A DNA stretch of 54,657 nucleotides from Acidobacteriaceae bacterium. Lineage in GTDB: Bacteria > Acidobacteriota > Terriglobia > Terriglobales > Acidobacteriaceae. Shown piece by piece: positions 4,709-54,588 of this stretch; position 1 is the stretch's first letter; every line of letters begins with the position of its first letter. The DNA lies in assembly GCA_003131315.1 (NCBI GenBank), contig PKUV01000133.1:1-54657 (forward strand), given 5' to 3'. The notes under the pieces are model-generated. The model had not been told where the DNA came from and ran no database searches. It saw nothing but the letters and a program-made list of their open reading frames with translations. The translations under genes and the position numbers were made by a program.

Positions 4709-4745
4709 GGCTGTGGGCGGGCCTTCTGGACGCAGGAATAGCGAT

Positions 4746-4784
4746 CCCCGGGTCATCATCCCCGGGTCATCATCCCCGGGTCAT
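4746..4784 (+). repeat. tandem repeat, 14-nt unit
   Basis: Two complete copies and one partial copy of CCCCGGGTCATCAT lie in tandem at 4746-4759, 4760-4773 and 4774-4784, 38 bases after the transporter stop codon. The period is twice the 7 nt seen in other arrays of this window. TCATC words continue to about 4810. Confidence 0.85.
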
Positions 4785-4910
4785 CGACCTTGTGTCATCA
4801 TCTTCATGTCACCCAGGTTCCATGTAATCCCCATTCGGCTAAATAAATCCTGACAGAAACGGCGAGTTAGTAATACAATGGCCGACGGTAGTTACCCGAG
4901 GGGGTATTTG

Positions 4911-10631: not shown

Positions 10632-10660
10632 GTCGTTGGTCGCTGGTCGTTGGTCGTTGG
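10632..10660 (+). repeat. heptamer tandem array (GTCGTTG type)
   Basis: Four consecutive 7-nt units, GTCGTTG or GTCGCTG, start five bases after the zinc-ribbon stop codon. A related array in mtaB has the same units. Confidence 0.85.
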
Positions 10661-10685: not shown

Positions 10686-10763
10686 GCGAGCGACGACGAA
10701 TGGCGATCGGCGATTAGCGAAGAGCGAACAGCGAACGACGGATCGCGAACGACCAACGACTTG
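10686..10763 (+). repeat. heptamer tandem array (GCGAACR type)
   Basis: Five clear units of the form GCGANNN lie at 10703-10737, with degenerate units on both sides ending in CAACGAC, the reverse complement of the GTCGTTG unit upstream. Together with 10632-10660 it fills the gap before the permease start at 10795. Confidence 0.8.
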
Positions 10764-10794: not shown

Positions 10795-12222
10795 ATGAAC
10801 CCCACTCCCGCTTCCCTGGCTCCCGAAGCCGAAACGTCCGGTCAACAGCCGAGTCTCGTCCGTGGGCTTAGTTTGCTCGACTCCGTGCTGCTGCTGGTGA
10901 GCGGCATCATCGGCTCTTCTATTTTTCTTACCGCCAAAGATATTGCCGGACCTTTGCCGAATCCGAAGTTGTTTTTCCTGGTGTGGGTTCTCGGTGGAGT
11001 GATTTCGCTGTGCGCCTGCGTCGCCTTCGCCGAACTCGGCTCCATGTTCCCCGACTCCGGCGGACAATACATCTACCTCCGCGAAGCGTACGGCGACCTG
11101 GTTGCGTTTCTATACGGCTGGATGTTGTTCGCAGTAGCGAATGGCGGCACCATCGCCGCACTCTCCGTCGCGTCCGCGGCCTACATGGGAAATATCATTC
11201 CTGCCATTTCGCAGCAGCATGTGATTTTCTCATTGCTAGGCATGCCGTTTACGCGCGCGCATGCCGTCGGACTGCTGCTGATCGCCATCCTCACTTACGT
11301 CAACGTTGTCGGACTGCGCTGGGGAGCGCTTCTGCAAAACGTCTCCACCTGGACCAAGTTCACTGCCATGGCCGTCTTCGTTGTCCTCGGATTCGCCCTC
11401 GGCAAAGGACACTGGTCGAACTTCAGCGCGCAGGCGCCGGGCGGATTAAGTATGGGACTGAGCCCAGGACAATTGATCTCCGCTCTCGGCGTCGGCTTGA
11501 TCGCCGTTTTCTGGGCCTACGACGGCTGGGTTTACATCACGTGGGTCGCCGGCGAAGTCAAAGACCCGCGGCGCAATGTGCCGCTGGCCATGGTTTTAGG
11601 TGTGCTCGCGGTAGGCGCGATTTATCTCGCCATGAACATGACCTACGTTTACGCCCTGCCGCTGAATGAGGTCGCAAAGTACGAAACCATTGCCCACGCC
11701 GCCGCGACAAAACTTTTCTCGCCCGGGGCCGCAGTGTGGTTGTCGGCGATGATCGCGGTCTCGTGTTTCAGCGCGGCCGCGACCTGCACCCTGTCGGGCG
11801 CGCGCGTCTACCTCGCCATGGCACGGGACGGCGTGTTCTTCCGCCGCATGGCCGTCATCCATCCCAAATGGCGCACGCCCGCCTTCAGCCTGATCGGCCA
11901 AGGCATCTGGGCCGCGGTGCTCACCATGAGCGGACGCTACGACCAGCTTTACACCTACGTCATCTTCGGCATGGTGCTCTCCTACACGCTGACCGTCATC
12001 GGCCTGTTCGTTTTGCGCTGGAAAAAACCCGACATTCCCCGCCCCTATCGCTGCACCGGATACCCATGGCTGCCTGCGATCTACGTTCTGGTCGGCGTCG
12101 CCTGGACGCTCAACACAATCATCCAGCGGCCGACGGAGGCCTTCTGGGGCGCCGCGATTGTGCTCGTCGGCGTGCCGGGATATTTGTATTGGAAGCGCAA
12201 GAGCCGCGAAAATGCGGCCTAG
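10795..12222 (+). CDS. APC-family amino acid permease
   Basis: A 475-residue transporter of the amino acid-polyamine-organocation superfamily with about 12 helices. The first helix has the family's unwound substrate motif GIIGSSIFL. The conserved FAELGSMFPDSGGQYIYLRE (helices 2-3) and VLGVLAVGAIYLAMN segments follow. It resembles LAT/serotonin-type APC carriers; the substrate cannot be told. ATG at 10795 is preferred over the adjacent TTG at 10792. It stands alone with heptamer arrays upstream. Confidence 0.9.
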   Translation: MNPTPASLAPEAETSGQQPSLVRGLSLLDSVLLLVSGIIGSSIFLTAKDIAGPLPNPKLFFLVWVLGGVISLCACVAFAELGSMFPDSGGQYIYLREAYGDLVAFLYGWMLFAVANGGTIAALSVASAAYMGNIIPAISQQHVIFSLLGMPFTRAHAVGLLLIAILTYVNVVGLRWGALLQNVSTWTKFTAMAVFVVLGFALGKGHWSNFSAQAPGGLSMGLSPGQLISALGVGLIAVFWAYDGWVYITWVAGEVKDPRRNVPLAMVLGVLAVGAIYLAMNMTYVYALPLNEVAKYETIAHAAATKLFSPGAAVWLSAMIAVSCFSAAATCTLSGARVYLAMARDGVFFRRMAVIHPKWRTPAFSLIGQGIWAAVLTMSGRYDQLYTYVIFGMVLSYTLTVIGLFVLRWKKPDIPRPYRCTGYPWLPAIYVLVGVAWTLNTIIQRPTEAFWGAAIVLVGVPGYLYWKRKSRENAA

Positions 12223-13966: not shown

Positions 13967-14045
13967 TTCCCCTGTGATCCTCTGTGTCCTCTGTGGTAGA
14001 GGGATTTTCTTAACCACAGAGGACACAGGGTTTCACAGGGGGGAA
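13967..14045. repeat. inverted repeat CCTCTGTGTCC / GGACACAGAGG family
   Basis: Arms at 13967-13997 and 14013-14045 are reverse complements (CTGTGATCCTCTGTGTCCTC against its partner) with a loop of about 15 nt. Copies occur at 17464-17527 and, as single arms, at 40200-40235 and 51245-51272. Here it lies in the divergent promoter region of the one-carbon locus. Confidence 0.85.
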
Positions 14046-17463: not shown

Positions 17464-17527
17464 TTCCCTCTGTGTCCTCTGTGGTCAAGAACTTTTGAAC
17501 CACAGGGGACACAGAGGATCACAGGGG
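17464..17527. repeat. inverted repeat CCTCTGTGTCC / GGACACAGAGG family
   Basis: Second full copy of the family at 13967-14045, with arms around CTCTGTGTCCTCTGTGGT and its complement. It sits between the second flavoprotein and purU, within the probable operon. Confidence 0.85.
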
Positions 17528-25307: not shown

Positions 25308-26840
25308 TTACAGGTCAATGCGCTTGTTCACTTCTGTACACTCCTGAATCACTACCGCCGGCGGGGCGGTATCCACGGAGTCCCACATCTGCTCGCTCAA
25401 AGCAGGCTCCAGAGCCGGGTCCACCACAGGATTCCCCAGGAGCATCTCGCCATTCACCCCTTCGACTTTCACATCCATCCAGCGGTTCGCCTCATGATGC
25501 CCGGAAATTTTCATCTTCAGGTAATTGTCCGTCAGCGCCTCGGTGAATTCCGCTCCCCCCGATTGCAACGTGATCGCCTCGACCACCGTCCCCACCAGCG
25601 ACCGCATAAACGCCGCTTTCTTCCCTGATGCAATCTCCCGCAGCACGCGGTTTCTTTCCCGAGCCACTGCTACCGGAACCTGCCCAGTCTGCTCCGCCGC
25701 CGGCGTTCCCGGACGCGCCGAATATGTGAACACGTGCAAATAGGTAAACGGCAGCTCTTCGATCATGCGCCGCGTCTCGCCAAACTCCGCTTCCGTCTCG
25801 CCCGGAAATCCCACCATCACGTCGGCGCCAATCGCCGCAGTGGGCATGGCCGCTCGAATCTTCAGGATCTTTTCCCGGTAATGCCACGGCCGGTACTTGC
25901 GATGCATGCGCCGCAACACCGCATCGCTCCCCGACTGCATCGGCACGTGCGCATGTTTTGCGATCCGCCCAGATGCCGCCACCAGCCCGATCAGTTCATC
26001 GCTCCAATCCATAGGCTCGACCGAACTGATCCGCAATTTCTCAAGAGACGTCTGATCCAGAATGGCGCGAATCAGAACTTCCAGTCGCTGGGAGTTGGTC
26101 GTTGGCTTTAACTGAGAGCTGAAAGCTGAGAGCTGAGAGCTGCTCTCCAGGTCCCGCCCCCACCGTCCCAAATTAATCCCCGAAATCACCACTTCGCGAT
26201 AGCCCGCCTCGACCAGCGTCCGCACTTCCGCGATGACGCGCTCCTTCGGCAGCGAACGGCTCTGTCCCCGAACATACGGAATCACGCAGAACGAGCAGCG
26301 GTTGTCGCATCCATCCTGCACCTTCAGGTTCGGACGCGTCCGCTCGTTGGCCGCTTCAAATACCGGAGCCGCCAGCAGTTCGGTATGCGCAAAAATGTCC
26401 CCCACCACAACGTTACCCGGGTGCCCCACTCTTTCGCGTTCTGTGCGAAAGAGTGGGTTTCGCTGCTCGCCTGAAAGCTGCGCTAGTGAAACAAATCCGT
26501 CCGATGAGGAAGTCGCAATCTCCGCCGCCTGGTGTTTGTGCGAATTACCCACGACCCACGTCACACCCGGCAGCGCTGCCAGCTCTTCCGGCGCCCGCTG
26601 CGCGTAGCAGCCTGTCACCAGAATGCGGCAATCCGGATTCACCCGCTGCAGTCGCCGTATCGATGCGCGCGCGTCTTTATCCGCGCCCTCGGTCACGGTG
26701 CAGGTATTCAGCACAACAATTTCCGCGTCGCGAGCCGCCCCGGCGCGCTCCAGTCCGCGCTCCAGAAACTGCCGTTCCAGTGCCGCCCCATCCGCTTGCG
26801 TGGCGCGGCAGCCAAAATTCTCTATGTAGAAGCGAGCCAC
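25308..26840 (-). CDS. mtaB: tRNA t6A37 methylthiotransferase MtaB with two repeat-derived insertions
   Basis: A 510-residue radical-SAM enzyme converting t6A37 to ms2t6A37 in ANN-decoding tRNAs. The N-terminal cluster Cys are at 11, 47 and 78 (ENFGCRATQADG, NTCTVT, VTGCYAQ). The radical-SAM CX3CX2C is at 178-185 (DGCDNRCSFCVIPYVRG). A C-terminal TRAM-like domain follows. The start is GTG at 26840. Two segments are encoded by dispersed repeats: residues about 120-144 (hairpin family) and 232-252 (heptamer array giving SSSQLSAFSSQL). Both lie on likely loops, so the enzyme may be functional. It is about 430-450 residues in most bacteria. Confidence 0.9.
   Translation of the reverse strand: MARFYIENFGCRATQADGAALERQFLERGLERAGAARDAEIVVLNTCTVTEGADKDARASIRRLQRVNPDCRILVTGCYAQRAPEELAALPGVTWVVGNSHKHQAAEIATSSSDGFVSLAQLSGEQRNPLFRTERERVGHPGNVVVGDIFAHTELLAAPVFEAANERTRPNLKVQDGCDNRCSFCVIPYVRGQSRSLPKERVIAEVRTLVEAGYREVVISGINLGRWGRDLESSSQLSAFSSQLKPTTNSQRLEVLIRAILDQTSLEKLRISSVEPMDWSDELIGLVAASGRIAKHAHVPMQSGSDAVLRRMHRKYRPWHYREKILKIRAAMPTAAIGADVMVGFPGETEAEFGETRRMIEELPFTYLHVFTYSARPGTPAAEQTGQVPVAVARERNRVLREIASGKKAAFMRSLVGTVVEAITLQSGGAEFTEALTDNYLKMKISGHHEANRWMDVKVEGVNGEMLLGNPVVDPALEPALSEQMWDSVDTAPPAVVIQECTEVNKRIDL
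26084..26139 (-). repeat. heptamer array inside mtaB
   Basis: Eight in-phase 7-nt units: GTCGCTG/GTCGTTG-type units at 26084-26104, one degenerate unit, then four CTGAGAG/CTGAAAG units at 26112-26139. Both unit types also occur in intergenic arrays (10632-10660; 40841-40896). Confidence 0.85.
26419..26457 (+). repeat. GGGTGCC-leader hairpin inside mtaB
   Basis: GGGTGCCCC at 26419-26427 overlaps a 13-bp perfect stem, CCCACTCTTTCGC at 26425-26437 and GCGAAAGAGTGGG at 26445-26457, with a 7-nt loop. It belongs to the family of hairpins that elsewhere lies between genes. Confidence 0.85.
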
Positions 26841-32615: not shown

Positions 32616-32666
32616 GTCACTCTCCTGAATACAAAATTAATCGCCACAAGATACCTTTTATAAACT

Positions 32667-32745
32667 GTCATCCTGAGCGAAGCGAAGGATCTGCTGTCTC
32701 GTGCACCGGCAAAAAAGACGATCCCTCGCTTCGCTCGGGATGACA
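32667..32745. repeat. inverted repeat TCCTGAGCGAAGCGAAGGA family
   Basis: Arms TGTCATCCTGAGCGAAGCGA and its near complement flank a short variable loop. Full copy at 33591-33673 and a single arm at 40115-40142. Confidence 0.85.
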
Positions 32746-33590: not shown

Positions 33591-33673
33591 GTTGTCATCC
33601 TGAGCGAAGCGAAGGACCTGCTGTCTTTTACGGTGAAAACAAACAGGTCCTTCGCTTCGCTCAGGATGACAAC
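33591..33673. repeat. perfect 30-bp inverted repeat, TCCTGAGCGAAGCGAAGGA family
   Basis: Arms at 33591-33620 and 33644-33673 are exact reverse complements with a 23-nt loop. It lies just downstream of the TPM-protein stop codon. Confidence 0.9.
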
Positions 33674-35619: not shown

Positions 35620-35700
35620 CGTTGAAACCTCAGGGATCCGAGCCCTTTTCTCTAATACCGCCGGTCTATGAATCGGGAACCGGGAACCGGCCGCAGCCTG

Positions 35701-40040: not shown

Positions 40041-40325
40041 CAGCTGACTAGAACTGGTTTAGCAGCCCGTGGTGCAATGCGACCCGGCTTTTCAACTCGC
40101 GATTCGCCAGATTTTGTCATCCCAAGCGAAGCGAGGGATAACAATTCATGCGGCACACTCTGCGAAAGGGTGGAATACGGCGAACCATCGCAGCTCAGCT
40201 TTCCCCTGTGCCCCCCTGTGCCCTCTGTGGTTAAGCCTTTTGCTCCTGCAATCTGCAATCTGACTTAGGCAATCGCTCCATGATATGTTGACTGTTCGCT
40301 GCTCAAGCCCACGCAGCTCAAGCCC
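40041..40325. other. intergenic stretch with repeat fragments
   Basis: 285 bases before the carbonic anhydrase gene. It carries a single arm of the TCATCCTGAGCGAAGCG family (40115-40142) and of the CCTGTG...CCTCTGTGG family (40200-40235). No gene seen. Confidence 0.5.
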
Positions 40326-40847
40326 ATGATCCGCTCCTACAAAGGCGTCACCCCCCAGTTCCCCGACACCTGCTACGTCGACGACTCCGCCCAGCTCATC
40401 GGCGACGTCATTCTCGGCGAGCACTCCAGCGTCTGGATGAACGCCGTCCTCCGCGGCGACGTCCACCAGATCCGCGTCGGCCACTACTCCAACATTCAGG
40501 ACAACTGCGTCCTCCACGGCATGAAAGAACAATATGGCGTCTACCTTGGCGACTACGTCAGCGTAGGCCACAACGCCATCCTTCACGGCTGCAAGATCGA
40601 AGCCCGCTGCCTCATCGGCATGGGCTCCATCATCCTCAACGGCGCCGTCATCGGATCCGGCTCCATCATCGCCGCCGGTACCCTGATCCCCGAGAAGACG
40701 ATCGTAGAACCGAATTCCCTCTGGATGGGTTCCCCAGGAAAATTTCGCCGCCGCCTGGATGAAAAAGACCAGGAAACAATCCTCCGCTACGCCGATAATT
40801 ACCTCGGCTACAAGGAGTCGTACTTGATGGAGAGAAAAAACTCTTAG
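40326..40847 (+). CDS. gamma-class carbonic anhydrase-like hexapeptide protein
   Basis: 173 residues forming a left-handed beta-helix. Repeats such as LIGDVILGEHSSVWMNAVLR and IGMGSIILNGAVIGSGSII are typical. Zinc-ligand-like His occur in VGHYSNIQDNCVLH and VSVGHNAILHGC, so a metal site is likely. CO2 hydration is the family reaction (YrdA/CamH type), although many members lack measurable activity. The TAG stop (40845-40847) is the last three bases of the first unit of a heptamer array. Confidence 0.92.
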   Translation: MIRSYKGVTPQFPDTCYVDDSAQLIGDVILGEHSSVWMNAVLRGDVHQIRVGHYSNIQDNCVLHGMKEQYGVYLGDYVSVGHNAILHGCKIEARCLIGMGSIILNGAVIGSGSIIAAGTLIPEKTIVEPNSLWMGSPGKFRRRLDEKDQETILRYADNYLGYKESYLMERKNS

Positions 40848-40896
40848 CTCTTAGCTGTTGGCTGTCAGCTCTCAGCTGTCAGTCCTCAGCTCTTCG
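40841..40896 (+). repeat. heptamer tandem array, 8 units, starting at a stop codon
   Basis: Eight in-phase units of CTNTYAG type, for example CTCTTAG and CTGTCAG. The first unit contains the TAG stop of the carbonic anhydrase gene. Confidence 0.88.
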
Positions 40897-41117
40897 CAGC
40901 CTGCGGCGGAAGTGATGCTCCCTATCGCCGGAATCCAGCCCCGGCAGGGGCGAACCAGCTTAGCCCAGCGCTTCAGCGCTGGGAAAAGTGCAAGAAATGA
41001 TTTCAAGTCCCGGAGGGACGACCCAGTTCTCACGCACACTTTAGGGGCTGCGGGTCGATTCCAAAGCCGCGAAGCGCCGCAAGAATACAACCCACGGCGC
41101 AAGACGCGGGTCCTCCC

Positions 41118-45201: not shown

Positions 45202-45243
45202 GCGCTTGGCGAACAGCGAACGACGAAAAGCGAACGACGTAAT
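45202..45243 (+). repeat. heptamer array reaching the hisS start codon
   Basis: Six in-phase units, GCGAACA/GCGAACG or ACGAAAA types, running to the first two bases of the hisS ATG. It replaces the place where a Shine-Dalgarno should be; none is visible. Confidence 0.75.
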
Positions 45244-46519
45244 GATCAAATCCCCCCGAGGAACTCGCGACCTTCTCCCGCCCGACACGGCGCTCTGGAA
45301 CTTCGTCGAAGCCGCCGTCCGCGACGTCTTCCGTGCCTACAACTTCCACGAAATCCGCACCCCCATCTTCGAGTCCACCGAACTCTTCGCCCGAGGCGTA
45401 GGCGAAGACACAGACATTGTCAGCAAGGAAATGTTTACCTGGGAAGATCGCGGTCGGGCCGAAAGCGATAAAGGACAATCCCTGACCCTTCGCCCCGAAA
45501 ACACCGCCGGCGTAGTCCGCGCCTACATCGAGCACAAACTCTGGGACCGCGGCCTCAACAAGCTCTTCTATATCGGCCCGCAATTCCGCCGCGAGCGTCC
45601 GCAAAAAGGCCGCTACCGCCAGTTCTATCAAATCGGAGCGGAAATCATCGGCCCCGCCGCCGCCGGCAGCCAGTCTCCCGCCAGAGACGCGGAAATCCTC
45701 GAGCTTCTCGCCACGCTGCTCGACCGAGTAGGCATCACCGACTGGATGCTGGAACTGAACTCCGTAGGCTGCCCCGCCGACCGAGCAAAATTCGACGAAG
45801 CCCTCCGCCAAGCGCTCGCACCCGTAGTAGGAAAGATGTGCACCGACTGCCAGCGCCGCGCCGTAACCAATCCGCTAAGAGTCTTCGACTGCAAAGTTCC
45901 CGAAGACCAACCCATCATCGACACTCTCCCCACCATCAACCAATTCCTCGACGAAGCCTGCCGCACCCACTACGAAGAAGTGAAAAACATCCTGAACGCA
46001 GTCGGGGTCCCCTTCGTCGAGAACCCGCGCCTGGTGCGGGGCCTGGATTACTACAGACTCACTACGTTTGAATTTACGCATGGGGCGCTCGGCGCGCAGA
46101 ATGCGATTCTCGGCGGCGGAAGATACGACGGCCTGTCCGAAGCGCTCGGCGGGCCGGCGGCTCCGGGGATCGGATTTGCCATCGGAGAAGATCGGCTGGT
46201 GCTTTCGCTGGCCGCCTCGGCGGAGTCGGTTGTGCGCAAGCCCGACGTTTACATTGCTCCGCTCGGCGCCGGGATGAATCGCGAAGCCGCCCGCCTGGCT
46301 CGCGAACTCCGCCGCCACGATCTGGTCGTCGATCTCGGCGACGAGTCGTTTCGTTTAAAAAAGTCGTTCGAGGCCGCCGACAAGATGGGATCGCGATACA
46401 TCCTCATCGTCGGCGAAAACGAAGTGGCGGCCGATGCATTCGCGCTCAAGCATCTAGCCTCCGGCGAACAAGTCACAGTTCCGCGCGGCGAGTTGGCGCA
46501 GCGGATTTTGCCGAAGTAG
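45242..46519 (+). CDS. hisS: histidine--tRNA ligase
   Basis: 425 residues. A class II aminoacyl-tRNA synthetase charging tRNA-His. It begins IKSPRGTRDLLPPDT, then the class II motif 2 (LFYIGPQFRRERPQKGRYRQFYQIGAE), the HisRS signature LVRGLDYYRLTTFEF, motif 3 (GIGFAIGEDRLVLSL) and the C-terminal anticodon-binding domain. ATG at 45242. Both the region before its start and the bases after its stop are heptamer arrays. Confidence 0.97.
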   Translation: MIKSPRGTRDLLPPDTALWNFVEAAVRDVFRAYNFHEIRTPIFESTELFARGVGEDTDIVSKEMFTWEDRGRAESDKGQSLTLRPENTAGVVRAYIEHKLWDRGLNKLFYIGPQFRRERPQKGRYRQFYQIGAEIIGPAAAGSQSPARDAEILELLATLLDRVGITDWMLELNSVGCPADRAKFDEALRQALAPVVGKMCTDCQRRAVTNPLRVFDCKVPEDQPIIDTLPTINQFLDEACRTHYEEVKNILNAVGVPFVENPRLVRGLDYYRLTTFEFTHGALGAQNAILGGGRYDGLSEALGGPAAPGIGFAIGEDRLVLSLAASAESVVRKPDVYIAPLGAGMNREAARLARELRRHDLVVDLGDESFRLKKSFEAADKMGSRYILIVGENEVAADAFALKHLASGEQVTVPRGELAQRILPK

Positions 46520-46568
46520 CTGTCAGCCGTCAGCTCTCGGCTTTCGGCTTTTAGCTCTTGGCTTTTGG
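46520..46568 (+). repeat. heptamer array directly after the hisS stop
   Basis: Seven in-phase units of CTNTNNG type, such as CTGTCAG and CTTTTGG. The first unit begins one base after the TAG of hisS. Confidence 0.88.
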
Positions 46569-46626
46569 CCCTGCAAACGAAGTAACGCCAACGCCGCGCT
46601 TTATATCAGGCCATCGCTTCAGCCAA

Positions 46627-46705
46627 CGCCGAGCTTCGTATCAGGGCATCGCTTCAGCGATGCCGAAAATTCTGCGAACTCAGATGCCCCTTTAGGGGCT
46701 GGGCA
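46627..46705 (+). repeat. TATCAGGGCA / CCCCTTTAGGGGCTG family
   Basis: Contains CTTCGTATCAGGGCATCGC, GCGATGCCG and the palindrome CCCCTTTAGGGG. It closely matches the reversed copy at 51286-51380 and lies just upstream of the NTF2-like gene. Confidence 0.8.
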
Positions 46706-51285: not shown

Positions 51286-51380
51286 ACCCAGCCCCTAAAG
51301 GGGCATCTGACATCGAAGAAATTGCGGCATCGCTAAAGCGATGCCCTGATACGAAACCCGAGTTTTTTCGCAGCCTGCTA
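51286..51380 (-). repeat. TATCAGGGCA family, reversed, ending at a stop codon
   Basis: On the minus strand it starts TAGCAGGCTGCG, whose TAG is the stop of the AlkZ-related gene (51378-51380), then TTTCGTATCAGGGCATCGC, GCGATGCCG and CCCCTTTAGGGGCTGGG. Confidence 0.8.
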
Positions 51381-52256
51381 GCTCACCCGCTCTGGGCGCG
51401 GCTTGGGAACGTACGCTTGTTTTGGCGGAGTTACCTGCAGCAGCGATTTGCTCCCGACATGCACAAAGCTCAATTCGCGCGCCGAAAGCAAGGCATGGAT
51501 GGCTTCTTTGACCCGCGTCCGCGAAACGAAGTTCGCGAGGAAGTTTTCGACCTCTCCTTCATCCACCGCCACCACGCAGTCCAGATATTTCGAGACCAGC
51601 GCCGAGAGCGCTTCGGGCACCGAAATTCCGACGCCCTCACGCACTACATCCGGCGCCCAGCGGGACAATTCGTCCCACACCGAGCCTTCCTCCGCCGTGT
51701 AGTCCACGCGCGTGATGCGCAGTTTGGCCCACAGTTCGGTCAGCCCGCGATCCAGCCCGGCGTTCGAAACCGACCCGCCCAGCATCTCGCCCAGTTTCGA
51801 TTTCGAAATCGGTCCACGCCGCCGGATGATTTCGAAAGCGTCACAGGCCAGCGGGGAATAGGGAGACCGCGGTCCGGTGGCAGGCGGCTGCTTCGGGTTG
51901 CGCTCCCCCACGAGCGAATAGAAATAAGGAAACACCGAGGGCGCCAGCAAGAATGCGTTGTTCTCATCGAACAGCGGAGCCTCGTAGGCTGCCTTGTCGC
52001 GCAGCGCGCGCACCATCAGTTCGGTCGCCTCTTTCGCCCGCGGATCGGCATAAGCGTGCTGGCGCGTAGGCAACTTGTCATCTGCCCCCACCCAGGCTCC
52101 CATGAACGTCGGCAGCAGAATCGCAGGCCGCATCGGATACATCAGACAAAATCCCACCGACTCGATGAAGGTGCGCGCCTCATCAAGAGTGCGCACGGGC
52201 TGGTAGTCGAGGCGCCACTTTTGCGTGCGAGCTTGCAGAAGTTCCGGGTCGGTCAT
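51378..52256 (-). CDS. AlkZ-related winged-helix protein
   Basis: 292 residues. The layout, with LMYPMRPAILLPTFMG near the N-terminus, a central winged-helix-like part (AFEIIRRRGPISKSKLGEMLG; GLDRGLTELWAKLRIT) and a third domain ending in KQAYVPKPRPER, resembles the AlkZ/YcaQ DNA glycosylase-like superfamily. These act on alkylated or crosslinked bases. The catalytic QxQ motif of true AlkZ is not evident, so activity is uncertain. Its stop codon coincides with a dispersed repeat, and mutL lies downstream on the same strand. Confidence 0.6.
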   Translation of the reverse strand: MTDPELLQARTQKWRLDYQPVRTLDEARTFIESVGFCLMYPMRPAILLPTFMGAWVGADDKLPTRQHAYADPRAKEATELMVRALRDKAAYEAPLFDENNAFLLAPSVFPYFYSLVGERNPKQPPATGPRSPYSPLACDAFEIIRRRGPISKSKLGEMLGGSVSNAGLDRGLTELWAKLRITRVDYTAEEGSVWDELSRWAPDVVREGVGISVPEALSALVSKYLDCVVAVDEGEVENFLANFVSRTRVKEAIHALLSARELSFVHVGSKSLLQVTPPKQAYVPKPRPERVS

Positions 52257-52283
52257 TGCTTCCGATTAGAACACAGTTGAAAG

Positions 52284-52431
52284 CAGCATTCAGCATTTAG
52301 CATTTAGCGCTTAGCACTTAGCAATCAGCCGGTTCGCATTGGGTTACGTCAAGGCCGCCCTGCCGACGAGAGCCAGAAGTCAGCCAGGTGTCGAGACTAA
52401 ATGCTAAGTGCTAAATGCTAGGTGCTGAATG
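52284..52431. repeat. inverted pair of heptamer arrays between the AlkZ-related gene and mutL
   Basis: Array 52284-52325 (six units of the YAGCNNT type, e.g. TAGCATT) and array 52397-52431 (five units, e.g. CTAAATG) are close reverse complements, ending in GCATTC-like and GAATGC-like words. Together they form an inverted repeat whose arms consist of heptamers. The mutL stop (52438-52440) lies seven bases beyond. Confidence 0.8.
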
Positions 52432-52437
52432 CCGCTT

Positions 52438-54492
52438 TCAGATCCGTTTAAACGCTTTCTGAATATCCTGCATGGAATAGCGCAGAACCACCGGCCTGCC
52501 GTGGGGGCAGGTCATTGGATGCTCGGTTTTCGCCAGTTCCGCGAGCAGCCACTCCATCTTGTTTTGTTCGAGCGGCATATTGACTTTGATGGCGGCGTGG
52601 CACGCAATCGATGCCGCGATGCGCGTCCGCACCGTTTCCAGATTGATGGCCTGGTCTTCGCGCGTGAGCTGCTCGAAGATTTCGTTCAGCATGTGCTCGA
52701 TCTGCGCCGCGTCCACGCCCGCCGGCGCGATCTTCACCGCTACGCTGCGCGCGCCGAAGGGTTCCGCCTCAAAACCGTTGTGCGCAAGTTCTTCGGCAAT
52801 GTCGCTGAAGATCGCTTGCTGTGCCGGAGTCAACTCGATGACCAGGGGCATGAGCAAACGCTGGCTCTCCACCTGCTGCGCGGAGCGTTGCCGCAGGACT
52901 TTCTCGAACAGCACGCGCTCGTGGGCCACATGCTGATCGATGATCCAGAGCCCGTCTTCATTGACCGCAAGAATGAATGAATTTCGAATCTGGCCTAACG
53001 GATGCAGCGTCCGCAGCGACTCGAGAGTCGGCGCAGCTTGCGGCTCTTGCGGAATCGGCGGCGCGCAGCCGTGATCGGGAATTGTCTGCCGAGAGATCGT
53101 CGCCTCCGGCGCGCGCGCCAGCGACACCGCCGCGTTGGCCTCGACCGCAATTCCTCCTTCAAATTCCAGCCGCGCCGTCGTCGCGGGAACTGCCGGTGCC
53201 TGCAGCGCGAACCCTCCCGCCGCCGCTGGTTCGTACAAGTCGCGCCATGGGGCTCGCTGCAACCCATCGCCGCCGCTCGGGCCCTGGCTGATCGAAGGAT
53301 TGGTGAGGCGGGGGCTGGTGAGGCCAGCACTCGCCGTTGGCTGCGCGCCGATCTCCGTCAGGAACTGCGGTACCGGCCGCGCCTTCATCAGCGCCGCCCG
53401 TACCGACTCGCGCACAAAATCGTGAATCACCGTTTGCTGGCGGAAACGCACCTCGGTCTTTGACGGGTGCACATTCACATCCACTTCGGCAGTCGGCATC
53501 TCGATAAAAAGCAGAACCACTGGATACACCGTCGGCGGCAGAATGTTGCGATATGCCTCGGTGATGGCATGTTGAATGAAGCGGTCGCGAATCAGCCGCC
53601 CATTCACGAAAATAAAAATCGAATTGCGATTGAGTTTCTGAATCTCCGGCTTCGAAACAAACCCGTGCAGCCGCACCTCGCCGAAATCGTGGGGCGCGGG
53701 CATTCCTACCCGTGAAGCCTCATCCTCCACTTCAGCGGACTCGCGCGCAGAAGTCTCCGCGCTACGCCGCCATGGCGGGAGCTGCGGCAGGCCGATACGC
53801 TCCAGTGGTTGCACCGCCGCTAGCGGAATCAACTGGTCAAGGGTCTCGCGTCCGAACACTTGGTACACGCGCTCGCGATGATCGGCCACAGGCGGCGCCA
53901 CCAGCAAGGCATTCGTCGCCGAGTGCAACTCAAAATGCTTCTCCGGATGCGCCAGCGCATAGTGCGTTACCAGCGAAGCGATATGGGAGAGCTCGGTGGA
54001 TTCCGATCTTAAAAACTTCTTACGCGCCGGCGTATTAAAGAAGAGATCGCGAATCGTGACCGAAGTCCCCAGCGGCAGACCCGCCTCTTCCACGCGGATG
54101 ATCTTGCCGCCGTTAATTTCGAGGACGGTCCCGGCCGCTTCCTCTTCCGCGCGGGTTTCCAGATGCAGCCGCGCCACCGAAGCGATGGAAGGCAGCGCCT
54201 CGCCGCGAAATCCGAGCGTCGAAATTCTCAGCAGATCGTCGGTGTCTTTTATCTTTGAGGTAGCGTGGCGCTCGAAGGCCAGCATGGCATCGTCGCGCAC
54301 CATGCCGCAGCCGTTGTCGGTGATCTGGATCAGCTTCTTCCCGCCCGCCTCCACCTGAATGCGAATACGCGTGGAACCGGCGTCCAGCGCGTTCTCGAGC
54401 AACTCTTTCACCACCGACGCGGGACGCTCGACCACCTCGCCGGCAGCGATCTGGTTGGCAACTCTCTCGGGAAGAACGTGAATCTTGCCCAT
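52438..54492 (-). CDS. mutL: DNA mismatch repair endonuclease MutL
   Basis: 684 residues. GHKL ATPase motifs: ELLENALDAGS (Glu/Asn), DNGCGM and GFRGEAL. The C-terminal half has the metal endonuclease signature DQHVAHERVLFE (Asp519 to Glu530), ASIACHAAIKVN and CPHGRP (about 662-667), so this is the nicking type found in bacteria without MutH. It acts with MutS (not in the window). The linker (about 350-500) is Ala/Pro-rich. ATG at 54492. Heptamer arrays flank both ends of the gene. Confidence 0.96.
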   Translation of the reverse strand: MGKIHVLPERVANQIAAGEVVERPASVVKELLENALDAGSTRIRIQVEAGGKKLIQITDNGCGMVRDDAMLAFERHATSKIKDTDDLLRISTLGFRGEALPSIASVARLHLETRAEEEAAGTVLEINGGKIIRVEEAGLPLGTSVTIRDLFFNTPARKKFLRSESTELSHIASLVTHYALAHPEKHFELHSATNALLVAPPVADHRERVYQVFGRETLDQLIPLAAVQPLERIGLPQLPPWRRSAETSARESAEVEDEASRVGMPAPHDFGEVRLHGFVSKPEIQKLNRNSIFIFVNGRLIRDRFIQHAITEAYRNILPPTVYPVVLLFIEMPTAEVDVNVHPSKTEVRFRQQTVIHDFVRESVRAALMKARPVPQFLTEIGAQPTASAGLTSPRLTNPSISQGPSGGDGLQRAPWRDLYEPAAAGGFALQAPAVPATTARLEFEGGIAVEANAAVSLARAPEATISRQTIPDHGCAPPIPQEPQAAPTLESLRTLHPLGQIRNSFILAVNEDGLWIIDQHVAHERVLFEKVLRQRSAQQVESQRLLMPLVIELTPAQQAIFSDIAEELAHNGFEAEPFGARSVAVKIAPAGVDAAQIEHMLNEIFEQLTREDQAINLETVRTRIAASIACHAAIKVNMPLEQNKMEWLLAELAKTEHPMTCPHGRPVVLRYSMQDIQKAFKRI

Positions 54493-54500
54493 AAAATCAG

Positions 54501-54521
54501 TGGTCAGTGGTCAGTGGCCAG
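54501..54521 (-). repeat. heptamer array just upstream of mutL
   Basis: Three units, TGGTCAG twice then TGGCCAG, beginning nine bases before the mutL start codon. Confidence 0.75.
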
Positions 54522-54588
54522 TGTGACAGACCCGACGGCGCGGCGTAAAGGCGGGGCGCGCTCGGTCGAAGTTCGGCAGCGGCGTGGA

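Follow-up and report, generated by a model that had tools for sequence, protein, structure and literature searches.

Do the 7-nt repeats scattered through this acidobacterial contig reflect a real and specific period, and what kind of DNA do they form? The DNA analysed, here called the window, is a 54,657-nt stretch of an Acidobacteriaceae bacterium (GCA_003131315.1, contig PKUV01000133.1, forward strand). We detected arrays as lag-7 match segments, with score cut-offs of 10, 11 or 12 depending on the count. The initial annotation listed ten loci with a 7-nt period, and eight of them reach a lag-7 score of at least 10. The remaining two are weak, both scoring below 10: 18572-18606 matches at 18 of 28 positions, and 45202-45243 at 20 of 35 (TRF row score 33). 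The locus drawn at 26084-26139 is borne out as a lag-7 segment only in its right half (26112-26142), and two further segments scoring at least 10 lie beyond that list (35670-35690 and 40246-40262). At a score of at least 12, the window holds eight segments at lag 7 and one at lag 3, and the remaining lags between 2 and 11 are empty; at longer lags, there are seven at lag 14, four at lag 15 and three at lag 21. In 20 local shuffles of the window, no segment reached this score at lags 5, 7, 8, 10 or 11. The period-7 arrays of the window are real.

Beyond the window, we sampled 40 stretches of the same genome (11.9% of it; 769.5 kb and approximately 13% together with the window). In this sample, whose totals are raised by four stretches that had been chosen for array matches, 67 segments were found at lag 7, 16 at lag 8, 59 at lag 14 and 25 at lag 21. 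Lags that are multiples of 3 gave 1-23 segments, multiples of 8 gave some, and lags 2, 4, 5, 10, 11, 17, 19 and 20 gave none. The sharp excess at period 7 anticipated by the initial annotation is therefore present in the sampled genome, and shuffling of the window does not reproduce it. Removing the four chosen stretches leaves a reduced sample of 37 loci including the window (689.5 kb). As had been proposed, the excess lies almost wholly in non-coding DNA, with 5 of 63 merged arrays inside genes called by our purpose-made gene caller, which misses small genes and places starts roughly. The drift of units under a fixed period is likewise real. The statement that units differ between loci stands in part: the genome contains at least six unit types, but types recur (AATTTGT, AGCTNTC, GCTCTTA, GTCGTTC and the 8-mer CATTGAGT).

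Within the window, the best complete element is an inverted repeat at 52278-52440, with 44-nt arms built of TAGCATT units and AATGCTA units around a 75-nt loop (arm score 29, lag-7 identity 0.78). It is placed between the called genes 51378-52256 on the minus strand (AlkZ-like) and 52438-54492 on the minus strand (mutL). Its left arm forms a period-7 array at 52284-52329 with a lag-7 score of 24, and the reverse-complementary array of the right arm spans 52397-52432, with a lag-7 score of 13 (to 52426) and an inverted score of 22-27. A second, degenerate pair consists of a GTCGTTG array at 10632-10660 (lag-7 score 17, inverted score 13), for which a fold is found, and a GCGAACA array at 10702-10736 (lag-7 score 15.5, inverted score 10). 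We scored a partner as an inverted score of at least 14 within 250 nt of an array, with the flanks of other arrays as the control. Among the eight window arrays scoring at least 12, the 52.3-kb pair passes this threshold, the 10.6-kb pair falls below it and four have no partner. The CTGAGAG array at 26112-26142 (lag-7 score 19, inverted score 6) lies within the called gene 25308-26840 on the minus strand (radical SAM/UPF0004), and no partner was found for it. On the plus strand, the array at 40841-40882 carries in its first unit the TAG stop (40845-40847) of gene 40326-40847, which encodes a hexapeptide-repeat protein; no inverted partner was found within 250 nt (inverted score 6). An Rfam Acido-Lenti-1 RNA match (45.5 bits) occupies 40937-40983 on the minus strand, just downstream of this array. 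The gene hisS (45242-46519) has a weak GCGAACA array immediately upstream, at 45202-45243 (inverted match of score 11, below threshold). An AGCTGTC-type array on the plus strand begins in its TAG stop codon (46517-46519) and runs over 46518-46569 (inverted score 7, no partner at threshold). Finally, a TCAGTGG array at 54497-54523 lies immediately upstream of mutL and close to the window end (lag-7 score 17.5, inverted score 7, no partner seen within the window). The mismatch repair gene mutL is thereby flanked by arrays on both sides, with the AlkZ-like glycosylase gene adjacent (51378-54523), which may be coincidence. Separately, a 14-nt unit occurs in three perfect tandem copies at 4744-4785.

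The inverted pairing extends to the reduced sample: of its 55 arrays scoring at least 12, 29 lie no more than 250 nt from an inverted partner, as opposed to 3.2% in the control; further direct copies at the same threshold were found near 0 of 55. With the partner score lowered to 12, these figures become 31 inverted partners, 4.2% in the control and two direct copies. For example, AATTTGT units face ACAAATT units in own-genome stretch L011. The initial annotation had taken the arrays as direct tandem tracts and missed this pairing. A picture of this kind, in which plain heptamer slippage produces the tracts and inverted partners are incidental, would suit the 26 of 55 arrays without a partner above threshold. 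It would also suit the published heptamer excess of bacterial spacers, which the parts of PMC4679880 and PMC4692102 available to us describe as known since 2007, with polymerase contact length as a suggested cause. However, direct slippage alone leaves the partners of the other 29 arrays unexplained, as well as the lack of direct copies and the compensatory arm changes described below, and we consider this explanation very unlikely.

The full own-genome sample contains 75 inverted repeats, and the mean self-match of their arms is highest at lag 7 in every length class. At an identity of at least 0.75, the best lag is 7 in 25 of them and 8 in 6 (31 of 75 together). A looser cut separates 43 periodic from 32 non-periodic inverted repeats; because the latter were found in the same sample, the periodicity is no by-product of the search. 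Variant units can be mirrored in register between the arms, as at L038 7341-7441. Other palindromes accompany these elements. Palindromes with an 8-9-nt step (CCTCTGTGT, CACGGAGG) lie at 13969-14041 and 17467-17517 of the window, at L034 11025-11171 and at L019 2205-2295. A second dispersed hairpin type, built round TATCAGG.CATCGCTT.AGCGATGCC, was observed in the window at approximately 46585-46680 and in L034, L039 and L019. In the window and L034 it is followed by GCCCCTTTAGGGGCTG, and in L034 it lies within the loop of a heptad palindrome.

To describe the placement of the arrays, we assigned the 63 merged arrays of the reduced sample (score at least 11) to gene junctions. Spacers between co-directional genes carry 0.594 arrays per kb, divergent spacers 0.223 and convergent spacers 0.096; by junction, an array is present in 35 of 282, 5 of 62 and 2 of 62, respectively. 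The difference between co-directional and convergent spacers is supported both by junction (p 0.04) and by length (44 arrays in 74.1 kb against 2 in 20.9 kb, p 0.002), whereas co-directional and divergent junctions do not differ significantly (p 0.39). Intrinsic terminators are hairpins at transcript ends and are common between convergent genes. The scarcity of arrays at convergent junctions and their presence inside the ribosomal superoperon led us to reject terminators as the explanation. A purely neutral DNA model would not lead one to expect the co-directional excess, which keeps a role in the transcript alive.

The ribosomal superoperon allowed the same junctions to be compared between species. 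Own-genome stretch L045, one of those chosen for array matches, is the S10-spc-alpha superoperon. Its 27 called genes leave 26 spacers, of which 14 contain an array, 9 a periodic palindrome and 15 either; three of the 11 spacers with neither are at most 1 nt long. For the comparison, an RpoA scan of named Acidobacteriota MAG loci provided the best 80 of 234, which together with L045 covered nine junctions (494 of 529 spacers are 40-350 nt long). With arms of at least 15 nt, 216 palindromes were found, the best arm lag being 7 in 170 and 8 in 34, and the loops measuring 0 to 202 nt. The 5′ arm begins within 10 nt of the stop codon in 175 of the 216. The stop codon is also in phase with the 7-nt arms (155 matches, against 73-117 at the six other phases); for 8-nt arms, no such excess appears (22 against 10-28). 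Moreover, 28 of 41 rplR>rpsE spacers and 31 of 53 rpsH>rplF spacers have fold z-scores below −3 (20 shuffles each). Eight of the nine junctions have palindromes, and adk>map has them in 0 of 59. At rplX>rplE, the spacer of L045 and its orthologs in several relatives shares a conserved sequence, CTCACGAACCGGT...CTCCGAAACCGTGA, possibly a cis-regulatory element.

These features raise the possibility that the palindromes serve a function as RNA hairpins of polycistronic transcripts, such as double-stranded processing sites or insulators between cistrons, with the pairing selected and the sequence free. The location between co-directional genes, the starts close behind stop codons, the stable folds and the occupation of 15 of 26 superoperon spacers would all fit, and pairing is indeed maintained while sequence changes. 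In 250 ortholog comparisons at 45 loci, restricted to alignable cases and with both directions of each pair counted so that counts are not independent, both arms had changed with Watson-Crick pairing kept in 347 arm pairs, against 54 expected by chance. Both had changed with pairing broken in 98 (about 109 expected), and one-sided changes numbered 1,049. RNA helices tolerate G-U, and a selected transcript should consequently show more G.T than A.C mismatches on the sense strand. The 286 palindromes examined contain 372 G.T and 333 A.C mismatches (p 0.15), and a stricter set of 130 contains 95 and 71 (p 0.07). A tRNA control gave 4 and 1, with 11 tRNAs only and too small to weigh much. A bias that is at most weak favours a process or constraint symmetric in both DNA strands, and a DNA-level process fits better than selection on mRNA, although weak RNA selection may be hidden in the slight G.T excess. 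Additionally, divergent spacers contain such elements too, five of six having the T-rich 5′ arm as well, whole genera are without them in the same operon, and the adk>map junction is empty throughout. An RNA function therefore seems doubtful to us, yet it retains some weight. The T-rich 5′ arm itself is no universal trait: arms with T>A outnumber those with T<A in families f1 (43 against 6) and f25 (15 against 1), and the reverse holds in f59 (3 against 8) and f10 (2 against 5).

The arrays occupy the same gene junctions across species, while their units change. At rplR>rpsE, the species carry AATTTGT, TCGTTGG, AGCTGTC, GGCTCTT, AGCTACT or 8-mers such as ATTTGGTA, and at hisS unrelated units were seen by eye even within the genus. 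Empty sites also exist (rplR>rpsE in L072 and map>infA in L082). Among 42 same-junction pairs with 91-94% rpoA identity, the units disagree in period or at no fewer than three positions in 52%; in 26% they are within one change, above a baseline of 7% for different junctions and genomes. On the rpoA tree, with 60 label shuffles per junction, four of the six junctions require no fewer unit-class changes than shuffled labels do. Some signal is kept at rplR>rpsE (16 changes against a shuffled minimum of 17) and at rpoA>rplQ (18 against a mean of 20.4). Across many genomes, 200 classified palindromes comprise 73 consensus units in 31 clusters. At a given junction, the unit type says little about ancestry. 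Arrays at fixed syntenic places under ordinary neutral drift had been named as an outcome that would refute a special family; the places are indeed fixed, but frequent wholesale exchange of units and joint change of the two arms set the process apart from ordinary drift.

Such replacement could also arise if mobile palindromic elements, MITE- or REP-like, inserted after stop codons, with the unit types as separate families. Consistent with this, a genome's unit types resemble each other across its junctions more than shuffled ones do (mean distance 2.90 against 3.19, sd 0.047), and sites that are filled in one species are empty in another. Palindromes of AATTTGT units are dispersed in the own genome: one of them has 85 matches there, counting itself and both strands, and those over most of its length are 69-85% identical (40 of 59 candidates scored). 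When all palindromes of the own-genome sample were compared with one another, a look-alike over at least 80% of the length and with at least 75% identity was present for 18 of 43 periodic palindromes and for 11 of 32 non-periodic ones. Periodic arms alone can yield such matches, but copies spreading within the genome are a reasonable interpretation. AATTTGT dispersal, the 18 similar palindromes and the recurrence of units together keep spread by copying or mobility alive. Furthermore, loops are alike for one unit type at one junction, and GCG.TGAGATG-like loops accompany AGCT-type units at two junctions. In contrast, a core shared by all loops is at best weak (the commonest 7-mer is present in 8 of 159 loops, and the shuffled best in 5), and the loop can hold conserved host sequence, as at rplX>rplE of L078. 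The best other AATTTGT copy over most of the length is only 85% alike, while the non-periodic GTCATCC palindrome, for which 40 of 136 candidates were scored, has copies that match it at 80-93% identity along approximately 80 of its 93 nt. REP/REPIN elements, for which PMC3733652 names a GTAG or CGTC foot tag, form one such class. A RAYT-type Y1 transposase in the genome is a further mark of these elements, but the presence of this transposase (PF01797) does not track the arrays: the array-rich genome G146 and the array-bearing G095, G136 and G172 have no match, and the own genome has 11. Mobility is accordingly an unlikely source of the arrays. Non-periodic palindromes of the type GTCATCCTGAGCGAAGCGAAGGAYC were observed in the window at 33591-33673 and 32666-32745; the former has 80 own-genome matches, counting itself and both strands, the others being 80-93% identical, and relatives have palindromes similar to these two at rplF>rplR.

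Sequence comparison leads us to favour, tentatively and at somewhat less than an even chance, a DNA-level origin as palindromic spacer satellites, through slippage with a 7-nt step and fold-back template switching. Arrays would then be whole or half satellites of spacer DNA. Replication slippage would lengthen a short tandem tract in steps of 7 nt, less often 8 nt; the nascent strand would fold back, and one arm would be copied into the other by template switching. Rewritten again and again, the arms would stay matched at the DNA level, and the rewriting would be fast enough for the unit type of a junction to lose its ancestry. Copies would persist where they are least harmful, mainly in the spacer directly after a stop codon between co-directional genes. 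We infer that slippage and fold-back are the mutational steps and that survival reflects tolerance rather than function. Slippage with fold-back is favoured by the mirrored variants, the compensatory change without clear wobble bias, the turnover in place and the phase of the stop codon with the 7-nt arrays; against it count the 26 partnerless arrays and the unit types shared within a genome above chance. Mirrored arms whose units are often replaced suggest a process in which strands fold back, and the many unit types in one genome argue against a particular sequence, whether a G-quadruplex or the site of one protein, as the cause. For G-quadruplexes in particular, which we rejected, the commonest units (ACTAGCT, AGCTGTC, AGTCGTT and AGCTCTT) have no GGG, which is present in some rarer units such as AATTGGGT. 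The ribosomal operon of relatives offers a natural experiment here, with many independent changes in the same spacer, and it cautions against inferring a functional RNA from every spacer hairpin that shows compensatory change. Template switching has a precedent for this: in the accessible part of PMC8794818, a single event is proposed to create or repair a perfect stem, yielding multi-base compensatory change. That part describes hairpins in RNA genes and does not extend to heptad spacer satellites in bacteria.

Heptamer repeats are known from other bacteria. The short tandem repeats (STRR) of heterocystous cyanobacteria have a period of 7 and a small set of fixed heptamers common to a genus. 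The likeness to them noted in the initial annotation is a general one that extends to reports on Xanthomonas and Geobacter: the period is shared, but units here vary within a genome and between species at one junction. In the available portion of PMC4692102, which also mentions a Calothrix heptamer, the GGGAATC and GGGGA(C/T)T heptamers of Xanthomonas and Nostoc are studied as G-quadruplexes. They are intergenic, on average 28 nt from the upstream ORF and mostly between ORFs of the same direction, with length and sequence varying strongly between species; site pairs in opposite orientation lie close together in 70 and 75 cases in two species, and for Xanthomonas such inverted pairs are described near upstream ORFs. 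Our arrays resemble these in period, in intergenic placement close behind the upstream ORF, in mostly co-directional neighbours and in inverted pairing. In contrast to the one G-rich unit type described there, they comprise many unit types per genome, the commonest having no GGG run. The TAACTGA direct repeats of marine Beggiatoaceae, as far as PMC4679880 could be consulted, are likewise intergenic heptamer arrays with a patchy distribution across lineages, but with one invariant unit and mostly upstream of start codons, whereas the units here are diverse. A survey of perfect repeats, in the part of PMC4060949 available, reports a median of 0.00 for 7-mers in three copies in four acidobacterial genera; degenerate arrays could have been missed by it. 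As the initial annotation had supposed, we found no earlier description in Acidobacteriota among the open-licence papers listed in our searches. Similar paired arrays are published for Xanthomonas and Geobacter, and the acidobacterial arrays differ from these in their many, replaceable unit types.

A further likeness in architecture concerns Geobacter metallireducens. Available sections of PMC2700814 describe putative global regulator binding sites of classes 1-3, said to be unique to that genome, as opposite-strand sites of 3-5 tandem 7- or 8-nt repeats (GTTGCTYN, TCTCCGTS[Y] and MTYCTGA), with pairs at variable distance stated for classes 1 and 2. Our arrays share the two opposite-strand tandem 7- or 8-nt tracts at variable spacing; they differ from the three fixed consensus classes in having variable units, with one unit giving way to another at the same site in different species. 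By analogy, the arrays could be paired binding sites for a chromosome-organising protein, IHF/HU being the suggestion made for Geobacter, and the strand symmetry of such sites would agree with the wobble result. Nevertheless, a protein that reads sequence would hardly tolerate 73 consensus units that are often swapped between relatives, and we regard such sites as highly improbable. In L034, the CACGGAGG units at 11025-11171 look by eye similar to the class 2 consensus of Geobacter in reverse complement.

The distribution of the arrays among genomes is patchy. Three AGCTNTC units with at most one mismatch occur in 18 of 149 genomes across the phylum, including the own genome, with uneven presence even among members of a single genus; reversing the pattern as a control gave 0-4 matches in each genome other than G146, which had 42 and 47. 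We also surveyed the S10 regions of 40 further genomes from 17 families, which were unevenly sampled and included a few short stretches. At least three lag-7 segments were found in 15 of the 40: six of 12 genomes in family f1, two of two in f21, two of two in f46, one of two in f32 and the one genome each of f10, f25, f58 and f59. The nine genomes of f23 had none with at least three, and the f58 genome has arrays in its S10 region with no palindromes at the cut used. Summed over the 40 regions, lag 7 accounts for 183 segments, followed by lags 8 (23), 9 (17), 6 (14) and 12 (12), with 0-2 segments at lags 4, 5, 10, 11 and 13. In E. coli K-12, the S10 region contains neither segments at lag 7 or 8 nor palindromes of this type. 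This pattern might reflect an active, lineage-restricted DNA-rewriting process in some Acidobacteriota, in which inverted 7-nt-stepped arrays are written or rewritten into operon spacers with structure and step conserved and sequence not. We think this broad form of the idea rather unlikely; if it were true and driven by a dedicated enzyme or a polymerase property, it would represent a new generator of bacterial palindromic satellite DNA.

Several candidate factors were compared with this distribution, and none accounted for it. ExoVII (XseA) is present in 33 of 33 genomes and thus uninformative. The reverse transcriptase domain PF00078 was promising in a first set, being present in 10 of 12 genomes with S10-region arrays and in 1 of 10 without, but a second set of 26 genomes broke the pattern. 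The prediction held for G103, G118 and G093 (present) and G045 (absent), and it failed for all five AGCT-positive g38 genomes, which are without the domain, and for AGCT-negative G070 and S10-negative G092, which have it. Similarly, G002 and G012, of the same genus as the window's genome, are without PF00078 although both have lag-7 arrays at hisS, with scores of 13 and 11.5. Loss of SbcCD, a palindrome nuclease, was rejected because the status of SbcD does not track the arrays. No match above the family cut-off was found in any of 21 family-f1 genomes searched (10 of the own genus and 11 of other genera), array-bearing or not, four of them having weak matches below it; this family includes the window's genome. 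In g38, SbcD is present in eight of nine genomes, both with and without AGCT arrays.
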